Assembly: GCA_004297825.1 (NCBI GenBank) | Contig: SCSX01000087.1 | Span: 1-46,408 of the forward strand | Length of the DNA: 46,408 nucleotides | Direction: 5' to 3' | DNA from: Spirochaetota bacterium | Lineage (GTDB): Bacteria; Spirochaetota; UBA4802; UBA5368 | In this document: positions 18,051-31,226 of the stretch, piece after piece | How positions within the stretch are numbered: the first letter of the stretch is position 1 | How the letters are laid out: every line of letters starts with the position of its first letter | The notes under the pieces: model-generated | The model's input: the letters and a program-made list of their open reading frames with translations, nothing else | Database searches by the model: none | What the model was told of the DNA's origin: nothing | Program-made: the position numbers and the translations under genes

Positions 18051-20303
18051 TCAGACCGGCAGCGAACTTTTCACGTTCAGGCAGCGGACGATGTCGGGCG
18101 TAATGTCCGCGATCCCGGTGCAGCCGGTCAGGATCATCGCCTGTTCGAGTTCCTGCTTGATCGTATTCAAATAATATGATACGCCGCGCGCCCCCATTCC
18201 CACCGCGGCAATCGCAACCGGCCTGCCTATGAGGATGAATTCCGCCCCCAGGGCGAGCGCCTTGAGTATATCCACACCATTCCTGAATCCGCCGTCGATC
18301 ATGATCCGGATATTTCCCTTCACCTCGCGCACGATCTCCTCGAGAACGTCCATGGAGCCGGCCATCTGGTCGAGCACGCGCCCCCCGTGGTTGGAAACGA
18401 TGATCGCGTGCGCCCCGGCCTCGACTGCCAGGGAGGCGTCGCGAACCGTCATTATTCCCTTCAATACGAAGGGAAGCGACGTCGATGAAATAAGCCCTCT
18501 CAGATCGGACAGGCTTTTGGGACCCACGGACTGGTTTTTCATTTTCATGGTCTTGAAGACTACCGCGTCGATATCCATCCCCACCGCCAGGGCGCCGGAT
18601 CTCTCGGCGGCCCTGATCCGCGCGAGCACCTCGTTGTTGTCGCTCCGGGGTTTGAAGACCGGAACACCCATGCCCCTGGCGTCCGACAGGGCCTGCAGGC
18701 CGATCTTATATTTATCCGGCGTCGCCCCGTCTCCCACGAACGCGACGGTTCCCGCGTTCAGGCAGCCGTTTACCACCGCGATATTGTAGTCGAGCTCATC
18801 CATGGCGCTGCCCATGTTCGTTCCCATTCCCGTGATCGGGGCGGCCATGATGGGCATCGACAGCCGGTTCCCGAAAAACACCGCCGAGGTGTCGGGCTCG
18901 GTCACATCGTGAATAAGCCTGGTGTTAATCTTGAAATTTTGAAGGGATTCCGTATTTCTTCTGAAAGAGGCCCCTGTCCCGATACCGCCCATGCCCGGCA
19001 CCCCGCTCGCGCAGTCCTTCCCGTCGCAGGTTTTACACGCGTAGCAGGTTTTTTTAAAGCGCTCGCGCGCCGATACACGGATCGCCTCCATTGAGAGCTC
19101 GGCTTCCTCAAAGACCTCAATGGCGATGACTTCTTTCGCCCTTCGCACCGCCTCTTCGGCCAATTCGAGGGTATCCGCGACGGCGATGATGTGCCCCGCC
19201 TTTTCGACGTTCGATCGGGGAACAATCACGGTATCGCCCGGTTTGACATTTATAAAAATTTCCGCAATCCCGGGAATTTTATTCGCATCTTCTATTCCCG
19301 TAATCCTCCTGACTATGCCCGGCTTCGTGATGAGGGCCCTCTCTATCGCGACCCTGTCGTGCAAAGGCTCAAGGTTGCCCGGCTCCTGGCCGACCGCGAC
19401 TTCGATTGCGGCTTTCATGAGATCTACGCCGCTTGAAAGCGGATAGGTGTAGGCGGACATGAAGCCACCGGAAAGACGAGCGGCCAATTCCCCGATCATG
19501 GCGCCGTGTTTCGTAATCTTGATATCGCCCTTGGCGCATCCGATGGAAATTCCCAGGGCGCGTATTCCCTTGCGCATGACCTCGCACGCTTCCTCCTGCT
19601 TCTCCCGGGAAAGCTGCGAAGGCATGGTGTGCCCGGTTTCGACGAAATAGGGAGGATATTCGATAATCCGGTCGGCGATACCGGTAAAGGTGATTTCATC
19701 ATTGAATACGACCGCGTCAATCGAGAGCTCTTCGCCTTCCATGTATTCCTCGATTATAAGCTCGCCGCTCGGGGAAGCGGCTTTTGCAAGCTTAAACGCA
19801 TCCGCTATCTGGCCCTTGCTGTCAATGCGGCTCACCCCGCGCGCGCCCATGTTGTCCGTGGGTTTGATCACCAGCGGGAACCCCAGTATCTGGCAGGCCC
19901 TCTTCGCGTCCGCGAGCGACCATACGGGAAGAAAATTCGGGCAGGGAACATTATGGGTCTTAAAGCGCATGCGCATCTTTATCTTATTGGTTGCCGCCTC
20001 CGCGTTGTCGAACTTGATGCCGGGCAAATTGAGCGTGTTGGCGACCGCGGCGACGGTCGTGGATGCATCGGTACCTACCGTGAGCACGCCGCTGATCGGC
20101 GTGATTTCGTTTTGAGATTTTGCCACGCGGACGGAACCCTGGACGTCCCGGGTGCTCATGACTATGGGAATATCGGCATATTTCATTCCCATGGCGTGCT
20201 CGTTGTAATCGGTGACAATCACCTGGAAACCCATTTTCTTGGCGGCCTGAATGGCCGGCACCTGTAGAAGCCCGCCCCCGATCACCATTATGGTTTTTTT
20301 CAT
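18051..20303 (-). CDS. ATP-grasp ligase fused to FMN-dependent alpha-hydroxyacid oxidase
   Basis: One uninterrupted 750-residue frame holds two enzymes. Residues 1-400 are an ATP-grasp protein of the carbamoyl-phosphate-synthase/biotin-carboxylase-like ligase type: a Rossmann-like pre-domain (MVIGGGLLQVPAIQAAKKMGF), the nucleotide-binding PLVIKPTDNMGARGV, IIEEYMEGEELSIDA and IGELAARLSGG with metal-binding residues. Residues 420-435 are a Cys cluster (Cys420, 423, 426, 431 in CYACKTCDGKDC). Residues 445-750 are an FMN-binding TIM barrel of the LldD/IDI-2 type: PIMAAPITGMG, LKGI with Lys615, SNHGGR with His639, DGGFRNG and LIGRP. A GGGGGACAA Shine-Dalgarno fixes the start at 20303. The ligase would activate a carboxylate with ATP and the oxidase act on a 2-hydroxyacid or isopentenyl-like substrate; both substrates are unknown. 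Confidence 0.9.
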   Translation of the reverse strand: MKKTIMVIGGGLLQVPAIQAAKKMGFQVIVTDYNEHAMGMKYADIPIVMSTRDVQGSVRVAKSQNEITPISGVLTVGTDASTTVAAVANTLNLPGIKFDNAEAATNKIKMRMRFKTHNVPCPNFLPVWSLADAKRACQILGFPLVIKPTDNMGARGVSRIDSKGQIADAFKLAKAASPSGELIIEEYMEGEELSIDAVVFNDEITFTGIADRIIEYPPYFVETGHTMPSQLSREKQEEACEVMRKGIRALGISIGCAKGDIKITKHGAMIGELAARLSGGFMSAYTYPLSSGVDLMKAAIEVAVGQEPGNLEPLHDRVAIERALITKPGIVRRITGIEDANKIPGIAEIFINVKPGDTVIVPRSNVEKAGHIIAVADTLELAEEAVRRAKEVIAIEVFEEAELSMEAIRVSARERFKKTCYACKTCDGKDCASGVPGMGGIGTGASFRRNTESLQNFKINTRLIHDVTEPDTSAVFFGNRLSMPIMAAPITGMGTNMGSAMDELDYNIAVVNGCLNAGTVAFVGDGATPDKYKIGLQALSDARGMGVPVFKPRSDNNEVLARIRAAERSGALAVGMDIDAVVFKTMKMKNQSVGPKSLSDLRGLISSTSLPFVLKGIMTVRDASLAVEAGAHAIIVSNHGGRVLDQMAGSMDVLEEIVREVKGNIRIMIDGGFRNGVDILKALALGAEFILIGRPVAIAAVGMGARGVSYYLNTIKQELEQAMILTGCTGIADITPDIVRCLNVKSSLPV

Positions 20304-20527
20304 GATTTGTCCCCCGAAATTAGCGTTAGGTCCGGAAACGGCGGTCATAATTTGATTATGTCACACCGTAGCGCTTTCAATATCGGCAAATTCCTGAATA
20401 TTTTTAGCACTATTTACAAAAACGAATAATAGCGGGACTGGAAACGTGGCGGCAGAATACGGCAAGGATTTGCAGGAACACGCTTTCAGCATGAAGAACC
20501 GGGGGTGTGTCACATCCAGGCTGCCGG

Positions 20528-21178
20528 TCAGGGTATTGTCCGCCAGCCTCTCTGCAGGGCGATTCTTCTCAGCGCACGATCCGGGTGTACACACACGGGG
20601 AATCCTATTTTTTCGAGTACGGGGAGATCGGCAAAGGAATCGCCATAGTAGTAGCATTCAGAAAGGGCTATGTCCATGGACCGGCAATAGGCCGCGGCGC
20701 GGACGAGCTTTTCCGCACCATAGCAATATCTGCCCCTGGTCCTGCCGGTGAATATGCCGTTCTCCACCTCGAGTGTTGTGGACAATACCGCATCCATCGA
20801 GAGGTGCCGGCGGGCGGGCTCGCAAATGTAGGATGTCGAAGCAGACAGCAAAACGGTATGGGCACCGCGGGCTTTATGAAATCTGACTTCGTCGACAATC
20901 TGAGGCCTGAAACGGGAGGCGACGCGCTCAATGAAAAAGCGCTCAGTAAAATCGCGCATTTTTGTTTCCGGCCACCCCGCGAATTTTTGAGCCCATTTCT
21001 GAAAGATGTTGGAGGTGTTAAACATGCCGAATCGGTGAATTGCCGCGATAAGCATTCCCGAAATTAATTCCCCGTGACTGATCATGCCCTGCTGGTAGGC
21101 ATACTTTATGAAGAGGCGTCCGCTGCTGGTATCCAGGAGGGTGTGGTCGAGATCGAAAAAGGCTATGAATGGTTTCAC
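20528..21178 (-). CDS. HAD-superfamily IB phosphatase (SerB-like)
   Basis: The 216-residue protein has the HAD motifs: nucleophile Asp in FFDLDHTLLDTSS (motif I), Ser in VLLSASTSY (motif II), and GDSFADLPVLEKIGFPVCVHPD (motif IV). This HAD-IB layout matches small phosphatases acting on phosphoserine, phosphoglycolate-like or lysophospholipid substrates. Two helical cap segments follow motif I. The start is a GTG at 21178 with a weak Shine-Dalgarno, and no better in-frame start was found. A gap of about 225 bases without recognisable coding or terminator separates its stop from the start of the fusion gene downstream on the same strand. It is divergent from pyrB. Confidence 0.88.
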   Translation of the reverse strand: MKPFIAFFDLDHTLLDTSSGRLFIKYAYQQGMISHGELISGMLIAAIHRFGMFNTSNIFQKWAQKFAGWPETKMRDFTERFFIERVASRFRPQIVDEVRFHKARGAHTVLLSASTSYICEPARRHLSMDAVLSTTLEVENGIFTGRTRGRYCYGAEKLVRAAAYCRSMDIALSECYYYGDSFADLPVLEKIGFPVCVHPDRALRRIALQRGWRTIP

Positions 21179-30087: not shown

Positions 30088-31125
30088 CTATTTAAGCATC
30101 GCATTCATTTTTTTAAGCGCGTCCTTGGCCTCCGCGATGGTGCGATCAAAGAGCTCTTTTACCGGGGGCATATCGCATACCAGGCCCTGGACCTGACCTA
30201 TGAGATGCACACCCTTTTTGAGATCGCCCGCCTCGGTCGCTTTTTGGATCTGGGCAAACGCGGTGGCCATCTGCGAAAGCTGGATCATCATCTTAGGCCC
30301 CTTGACCAGCGTACCCAGCATGAGCTTGAACCAGGGGAGCTTGAGCTGGCGGGTGATGGAGATTGACGCGACGAACGCACGGGGAAGGCTCATGCCCCTG
30401 CGGATTGACGACTTTGCGGCGGGCGTCTTCATAACGCGGCAATAAAGTCCATCAAAGCGATTAGAATAAATGGTATCGTCCATTCCCCGCTCTATCGTTG
30501 CCTTCTTTGTTATTTCATGCACAGGGCTTTCCTTCGTCACCGAAAGGCGCGTACCCATTGCGATACCATCGGCGCCCAGGGCGAGTGCGGCCGCGAGCCC
30601 GTATCCGTCACCAAAGCCGCCGGTGGCTATCACGGGAATTTTAACCGCGCGCACGATCGTGGGAACGAGGACCAGCGAGGTAACCATGCCGCCATGCGCC
30701 GCCGCTTCGTGACCGGTCACCTGCAGCGCGTCCGCGCCGTCGCGTTCCGCGGCGAGCGCGTGCTTCAGGGTGACCACCGTCGCGATAACCTTGCCCCCGT
30801 ACGCATGGGCGCGCTTGGTGATCCAGTCGCCCTTGCCGAGCGAAAAGTTGATAACCGGCACCTTTTCCTCGAGGAGCACCTCGGCGTTTTCCCGGGCCCC
30901 CGGCATGAGCAGGGTGGCTCCCGCGCCAAAGGGCTTGTTGGTGAGCGCGCGGATTCGCTTGATCGACTGGCGCGTCTGTTCCGGGTTGAGGGGGCCGGTT
31001 GCGAGTATACCCAGTCCGCCCGCGTTGCAGACGGCCGCGACGAGCTCCGGGGTGCTGATCCAGCTCATTCCCGGAAGAATGATGGGGTACTTGATGCCGA
31101 ACAGCTTTGTGATCTTCGTGTTCAT
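30088..31125 (-). CDS. nitronate monooxygenase/FabK-like flavoprotein, paralog 1
   Basis: A 345-residue FMN TIM-barrel protein. Family motifs are PIILPGMSWISTPELVAAV near the N-terminus, NAGGLGILATG, the phosphate-binding region IPVIATGGFGDGYGLAAALALGADGIAMGTR and TGHEAAAHGG with the His typical of this class. Enzymes in this family are nitronate monooxygenases or FabK-type enoyl-ACP reductases; other members act on unsaturated acyl chains. The ATG at 31125 has GGAGAAG seven bases upstream. It is closely related over its whole length to the gene at 31965. A TetR gene lies just upstream on the same strand, and the FadH-like gene follows. Confidence 0.92.
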   Translation of the reverse strand: MNTKITKLFGIKYPIILPGMSWISTPELVAAVCNAGGLGILATGPLNPEQTRQSIKRIRALTNKPFGAGATLLMPGARENAEVLLEEKVPVINFSLGKGDWITKRAHAYGGKVIATVVTLKHALAAERDGADALQVTGHEAAAHGGMVTSLVLVPTIVRAVKIPVIATGGFGDGYGLAAALALGADGIAMGTRLSVTKESPVHEITKKATIERGMDDTIYSNRFDGLYCRVMKTPAAKSSIRRGMSLPRAFVASISITRQLKLPWFKLMLGTLVKGPKMMIQLSQMATAFAQIQKATEAGDLKKGVHLIGQVQGLVCDMPPVKELFDRTIAEAKDALKKMNAMLK

Positions 31126-31226
31126 TGTCTTCTCCTTTAAAAAGTGAAATAAATAACAGCGATGTGCGATCGCCAAAAGGTGCATTATCAGGCATCCGCC
31201 GGAATCGATTATTCCGGCAATGCATA

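Follow-up and report, generated by a model that had tools for sequence, protein, structure and literature searches.

The window analysed here, a 46,408-nucleotide stretch of DNA from a Spirochaetota bacterium, carries a gene in which an ATP-grasp ligase and an FMN-dependent alpha-hydroxy-acid oxidase are read as a single protein, raising the questions of whether the fusion is genuine and which pathway would use both activities. The preliminary description had reported one unbroken 750-codon frame at 18051-20303 and left its strand unstated; translation of the minus strand confirmed the frame, with 750 codons and zero internal stops, while an alternative in-frame ATG at 20348, 15 codons upstream of 20303, would give a 765-aa product. 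The domain order is ATP-grasp ligase half, CxxCxxCxxxxC motif and oxidase half, and each half retains its main catalytic motifs at the positions given earlier (PTDNMGARGV, Lys615 and His639). The features of the locus are as follows.

18051..20303, minus strand: whole fusion gene, 750 aa (ATG at 20303, stop at 18053..18051, from the open reading frame)
19104..20303, minus strand: ATP-grasp ligase half, residues 1-400, predicted L-amino-acid-ligase fold (Pfam PF13535, PF18603; PDB 3vot, 4dim)
19833..19862, minus strand: PTDNMGARGV, residues 148-157, just after Lys147, predicted ATP-binding (sequence, homologue alignment)
19113..19334, minus strand: LAL_C2 domain, residues 324-397 (Pfam PF18603, E 1.5e-18)
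18054..19067, minus strand: FMN alpha-hydroxy-acid oxidase half, residues 413-750 (PF01070, E 4.6e-69; mandelate oxidase fold)
19011..19046, minus strand: four-cysteine motif CYACKTCDGKDC, residues 420-431, candidate Fe-S site, kept in 89 of 89 fusions
18378..18461, minus strand: Lys615, His639 and Arg642 of the predicted active site (VLKGIM ... SNHGGR), aligned with PDB glycolate/lactate oxidases
20528..21178, minus strand: HAD-type phosphatase gene directly upstream of the fusion (Pfam), conserved only within the window's family

The ligase half contains Pfam ATP-grasp_4 (PF13535) across residues 141-281 and matches PDB 3vot and 4dim by sequence, and its AlphaFold2 model superposes on the L-amino acid ligase 3vot with a TMt of 0.87. 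The predicted ATP/Mg ligands K107, K147, D260, E272 and R276 are invariant among 19 diverse homologues and align with 3vot. By fold, LAL C-terminal domain and ATP/Mg ligands, this half is predicted to be an ATP-grasp carboxylate-amine ligase of the L-amino-acid-ligase type. It shares fold and ATP/Mg-site motifs with the L-amino acid ligases BL00235 (3vot), RizA (4wd3) and BacD (3vmm), but differs from them in being fused to an oxidase, in its sequence (about 20% identity) and in its predicted substrates, a hydroxy acid and a sugar amine, whereas enzymes of the BL00235/RizA/BacD type use two amino acids.

The Pfam FMN_dh match of the oxidase half is strongest across residues 596-740, and comparison of its AlphaFold2 model with mandelate oxidase gave a TMt of about 0.77. 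Sequence and model together predict an FMN_dh-family barrel with catalytic Lys, His and Arg kept, as in glycolate, lactate and mandelate oxidases. Equivalents of glycolate oxidase Tyr24 and Tyr129 were not seen in the sequence alignment, that region aligning weakly; by sequence alignment alone, a conserved KPR stretch occupies the position of the active-site Tyr129. The usual N-terminus of the FMN alpha-hydroxy-acid oxidase family is replaced by the CxxCxxCxxxxC motif, which had been said to mark stand-alone oxidases of the same subfamily as well and which we found in nine of ten distinct ones; the four cysteines may form an Fe-S site. A 365-aa gene elsewhere in the window (30088-31185, minus strand) is weakly similar to barrel residues 613-698 and probably encodes a different enzyme. 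The AlphaFold2 model of the whole fusion, built with 19 homologues as input, had a mean pLDDT of 89.6 and a pTM of 0.60; the domains are thus well predicted, and their relative placement is not.

A search for the same domain order in other genomes, as the preliminary description proposed, showed that about 49 of the 58 relatives covered encode the fusion at full or nearly full length, with identities of 42-90%. The best 80 loci of the genome collection are likewise fusions, from Spirochaetota (including Leptospiraceae), Nitrospinota and Coatesbacteria, with a few in unplaced or probably misbinned bins. Among 89 different fusions, CxxCxxCxxxxC is retained in 89, the ATP-grasp motif in 87 and SNHGGR in 87, and at least one half finds a strong match in 297 of 393 sampled Spirochaetota genomes. 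The two domains are therefore not separate genes in every relative, nor have their active sites been lost. The fusion is genuine, as the preliminary description had it, but the link is no local oddity: the ligase-oxidase fusion is ancient and has been retained across most of a phylum and beyond. That an assembly error or frameshift joined two genes is a general possibility in any 96-contig assembly, yet it is ruled out to a vanishing probability by the recurrence of the architecture, with identities of 42-90%, across dozens of assemblies made independently, including those of relatives, and by the conserved Cys motif at the junction. Genome G062 additionally encodes a second, diverged ligase-oxidase fusion of 720 aa (L174:6399-8561, plus strand; 26% and 33% identity to the halves) besides a separate ligase, and this diverged fusion is a paralogous system.

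Spirochaetales and Treponema encode the ligase on its own, mostly as a protein of 495-640 aa. On a tree of the ligase half, made by a quick method with a single distant outgroup row and some long branches, the split forms are nested within the fused ones of Nitrospinota, Coatesbacteria, Leptospira and the window's own order, and two state changes are needed. Because the split ligases fall inside the fused ones, fission looks derived and fusion earlier. The Brachyspira-like genome G053 shows an intermediate between the two states, with a full-length fusion whose ligase half is intact and whose oxidase half lacks the Cys motif and SNHGG, and a separate oxidase elsewhere in the same genome:

L043:6342-8492, minus strand: G053 fusion with decayed oxidase half (no Cys motif, no SNHGG)
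L050:6193-7233, minus strand: G053 intact stand-alone oxidase (motif check)

Siblings in this genome's group match in a similar way. Split ligases carry in their tail a motif, FWxAxxRGGxQGxxYxxD, that aligns to the C-terminal helix of the oxidase in a profile alignment (P 0.0015, probability 17%), a result that is no more than suggestive of an oxidase remnant. An oxidase was undetected in 8 of 16 split-ligase genomes at a cut-off of E 1e-20, and so the oxidase is not always required. Both ligase and oxidase are kept in the 1.14 Mb T. pallidum-like genome.

We then considered gene neighbourhoods. In the window's own order the neighbours of the fusion include no glycan gene, and neither RadC, PyrB, PyrC and HAD there nor a GlpX-like gene (family f7) and MnmA (Leptospirales) gave a pathway; the window-order neighbours, the GlpX-like gene and MnmA were identified by eye from sequence, and HAD by Pfam. 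The context of the split ligases is informative. Searched with the operon genes, 10 of 13 sampled loci (L046, L166, L168, L170, L173, L176, L177, L178, L179 and L181) have the order spiroSPASM–(GT-like)–SpsF–SpsG/methyltransferase–ATP-grasp–amidase–(GerMN)–FlaA, in which SpsF is a CTP_transf_3 protein, the SpsG/PseG-like domain is fused to Methyltransf_23 and the amidase is an N-acetylmuramoyl-L-alanine amidase. The operon is shorter in L172, and the T. pallidum-like L162 and T. denticola-like L164 are exceptions. Between the SpsG/methyltransferase match and the ligase match, 10 of 12 genomes have a gap of -1 to 131 bases.

The split oxidase was found in a similar setting: at the T. pallidum-like locus L163 the order is spiroSPASM–GT-like–SpsF/SpsG/methyltransferase–HAD–stand-alone oxidase, with the ligase elsewhere in the genome. 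Each half, when split, is thus placed independently in the same spiroSPASM-SpsF-SpsG/methyltransferase operon, the FlaA link being the ligase's, and both halves therefore point to nonulosonic-acid glycosylation of flagella. Among fusions, 28 bases separate the same operon methyltransferase from the intact fusion downstream of it in G047, and an SpsG/methyltransferase gene lies 2.6 kb upstream of the fusion in G054; in G048 the fusion is elsewhere and the operon (L220) reads spiroSPASM–SpsF–SpsG/MT–amidase–FlaA without a ligase. In two Nitrospinota an SpsF gene stands directly upstream of tandem flagellin genes. The link to SpsF, SpsG and flagellar genes is therefore seen for the split halves and two fusions, and not at the window's own locus. 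The two Nitrospinota loci (L234 and L237) have four or five flagellin genes, with SpsF on the 5' side and a GFO/IDH-like oxidoreductase on the 3' side, and these flagellins resemble spirochaete FlaB in length. Pantothenate synthesis, pantoate being an alpha-hydroxy acid, was also considered as the pathway and was dropped after these operons emerged.

Downstream of the ligase in the split operon come the amidase and GerMN genes, which may indicate a cell-wall role and so count against a glycan. Together with the L-amino-acid-ligase fold and LAL_C2, they would suit a cell-wall or dipeptide enzyme, that is, an L-amino-acid ligase that serves peptide or peptidoglycan metabolism and lies beside the amidase gene by chance. 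We regard this as improbable, as SpsF, SpsG/MT and FlaA adjoin the ligase too, and as it is absent from Borrelia-group and most flagellin-less genomes, all of which are expected to have peptidoglycan.

Co-occurrence was assessed in a panel of 44 chosen Spirochaetota genomes, which were picked partly on presence or absence and are mutually related, so that no probability is attached to the counts. NeuB and the methyltransferase accompany the strong match in all 29 flagellated genomes that have one, the methyltransferase match being weak in G050. Five genomes of the presumed Borrelia group have flagellin and lack the strong match, NeuB and methyltransferase, and five flagellin-less genomes have neither strong match nor methyltransferase. 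G040, G131, G169 and G182, mostly fragmented drafts, are exceptions in having flagellin, NeuB and methyltransferase and no strong match. The clear exception is G358, of which G331 is a sibling: it matches the query and lacks flagellin and methyltransferase, which counts against the glycan reading. Flagellin was present in 12 of 12 tested fusion genomes of Nitrospinota, Coatesbacteria and Leptospirales. In the window's genome, adjacent PseB-like and PseC-like genes are on contig C74 (below curated equivalog cut-offs), NeuB is on C65 and the methyltransferase on C11; in the T. pallidum-like genome PseB-like and PseC-like genes are also adjacent, and NeuB is present.

That scatter of pathway genes over contigs would agree with a nonulosonate that decorates another surface glycan, such as LPS or other proteins, and not flagellin, as would the general ability of Leptospira to make nonulosonates (PMC3438082). 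FlaA within the operon, SpsF beside flagellins in Nitrospinota and the lack of the enzyme in most non-flagellated genomes speak against such a destination, and we give it little credence.

On gene context, the flagellar nonulosonate glycan is the probable pathway, and the preliminary description's suggestion of a small-molecule modification system, which the operon context supports, is the best reading of the fusion. We somewhat favour a bifunctional enzyme that helps to build a nonulosonic-acid (pseudaminic-type) glycan for the flagellar filament: its oxidase would set C2 of an acid and its ligase would join that acid to a sugar amine. The FMN (perhaps Fe-S) half would oxidise, reduce or epimerise C2 of an alpha-hydroxy or alpha-keto sugar acid, for example converting 2-keto-3-deoxygluconate to the 2-hydroxy acid, which the SpsG-linked methyltransferase would O-methylate. 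The ATP-grasp half would then activate the carboxylate as an acyl phosphate and join it to the amine of a 4-amino sugar precursor or of the nonulosonate, producing the extended N-acyl group of the spirochaete flagellin glycan. Amide formation by this half is fairly likely. ATP-grasp ligases normally yield a stable amide, and the ligase is for this reason the likelier last step; the reverse order, in which the ligase channels an activated carboxylate to the oxidase as had been proposed, is less likely.

The glycan of T. denticola is reportedly a mono-acetylated nonulosonate with 2-methoxy-4,5,6-trihydroxyhexanoyl on N7. Taking that acyl structure as reported, the mass sum 274.117 + 176.069 = 450.185 fits a methoxy-trihydroxyhexanoyl amide and the 450.2 Da T. 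denticola glycan. The acid equals 2-keto-3-deoxygluconate + 2H + CH2, which suggests FMN redox at C2, O-methylation and ATP-grasp amide formation. The ligation would replace the usual N-acetyltransferase (PseH) step. PseH occupies the same proposed place in the pathway, amino-sugar acylation between PseC and PseG, but works by acetyl-CoA transfer where the ligase half would use ATP-dependent carboxylate-amine ligation. PseH (TIGR03585) was over cut-off in 0 of 20 genomes, including the window's, and gave no match whatever in the T. pallidum-like genome, G047, G049, G054, G186 and G249; in T. denticola (G063), however, a GNAT protein matched PseH below threshold (E 1e-18), which counts against the proposal.

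This proposal is least secure on the exact substrate and on what the oxidase half does, points on which we are evenly divided, because of the 8 split-ligase genomes of 16 in which the oxidase went undetected. This pattern, together with the degenerate oxidase half beside an intact ligase half in the G053 fusion, would be expected if only the ligase worked in the flagellar glycan pathway, with the oxidase half doing other work, for instance recycling redox equivalents or oxidising free glycolate or lactate, and the fusion serving only co-regulation or stabilisation. We judge such a division of labour unlikely, since the SpsF-SpsG/MT operon of the T. pallidum-like genome includes the oxidase, G053 retains its separate intact oxidase, both halves persist in a 1.14 Mb genome and the fusion has been retained long-term. 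Returning to the favoured bifunctional enzyme, its fullest form is held tentatively, at somewhat under an even chance: one polypeptide in which the FMN/Fe-S domain makes the hydroxy-acid acyl group and the ATP-grasp domain attaches it to the nonulosonate amine, ancestral to most Spirochaetota and later split, with both halves kept in the small T. pallidum-like genome.

Published work offers several points of contact. In T. denticola, a 450.2 Da glycan on FlaB is required for filament assembly and motility (PMC9481697), and in Leptospira cryo-EM FlaB1 appears glycosylated at the core-sheath interface, where glycans were suggested to bridge core and sheath (PMC13144727). Shewanella flagellin bears a mono-acetylated 274 Da nonulosonate and an O-methylated 236-264 Da moiety, and the sfm operon (NeuB, methyltransferase, ATP-grasp) is needed for the nonulosonate with the O-methylated moiety (PMC3765264). 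Compared by description, S. oneidensis sfmABCDE resembles the spirochaete set in its ATP-grasp_4 protein SfmE, methyltransferase SfmD and NeuB-like enzyme (PMC3765264), but has neither oxidase nor fusion; in their place it encodes a TPP enzyme and an SDR reductase. The C. difficile type B flagellin cluster encodes the ATP-grasp protein CDR20291_0245 (PMC5207246), a likeness that again is by description; its glycan system is different and has no fused oxidase. ATP-grasp proteins in flagellin-modification clusters (SfmE, CDR20291_0245) are thus known already. In the open-access literature we found no paper on the ligase-oxidase fusion or on a spirochaete ATP-grasp protein in flagellar glycosylation, and none assigning enzymes to the extended acyl group of the spirochaete flagellin glycan.

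The analysis names a candidate enzyme set for that group, comprising the ligase and oxidase, whether fused or split, together with NeuB, SpsF and the SpsG-linked methyltransferase, and it suggests that nonulosonate-pathway sugars may be acylated at the expense of ATP in place of acetyl-CoA. A function would follow for a conserved protein family that has no close model in NCBIfam.

Three neighbouring genes were recorded alongside. A HpcH/HpaI aldolase-family gene lies directly 3' of the fusion at L095:10175-11053 (plus strand) and 15 other, mostly Nitrospinota, loci. As a keto-deoxy acid source it proved ambiguous, the genes beyond it looking like reductive-TCA citrate cleavage, and a role in sugar-acid metabolism or in the citrate cycle would suit it equally. 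A protein of about 317 aa starting MSTIP or MNTIP, which has zero Pfam and NCBIfam matches, always lies between spiroSPASM and SpsF (L166:11439-12389, minus strand, and relatives) and is a candidate flagellin glycosyltransferase. The spiro-SPASM radical SAM-like protein (TIGR04321) heads the glycan operon (L163:736-2412, plus strand, and relatives), a position that suggests a role for this spirochaete family in the flagellar glycan pathway.
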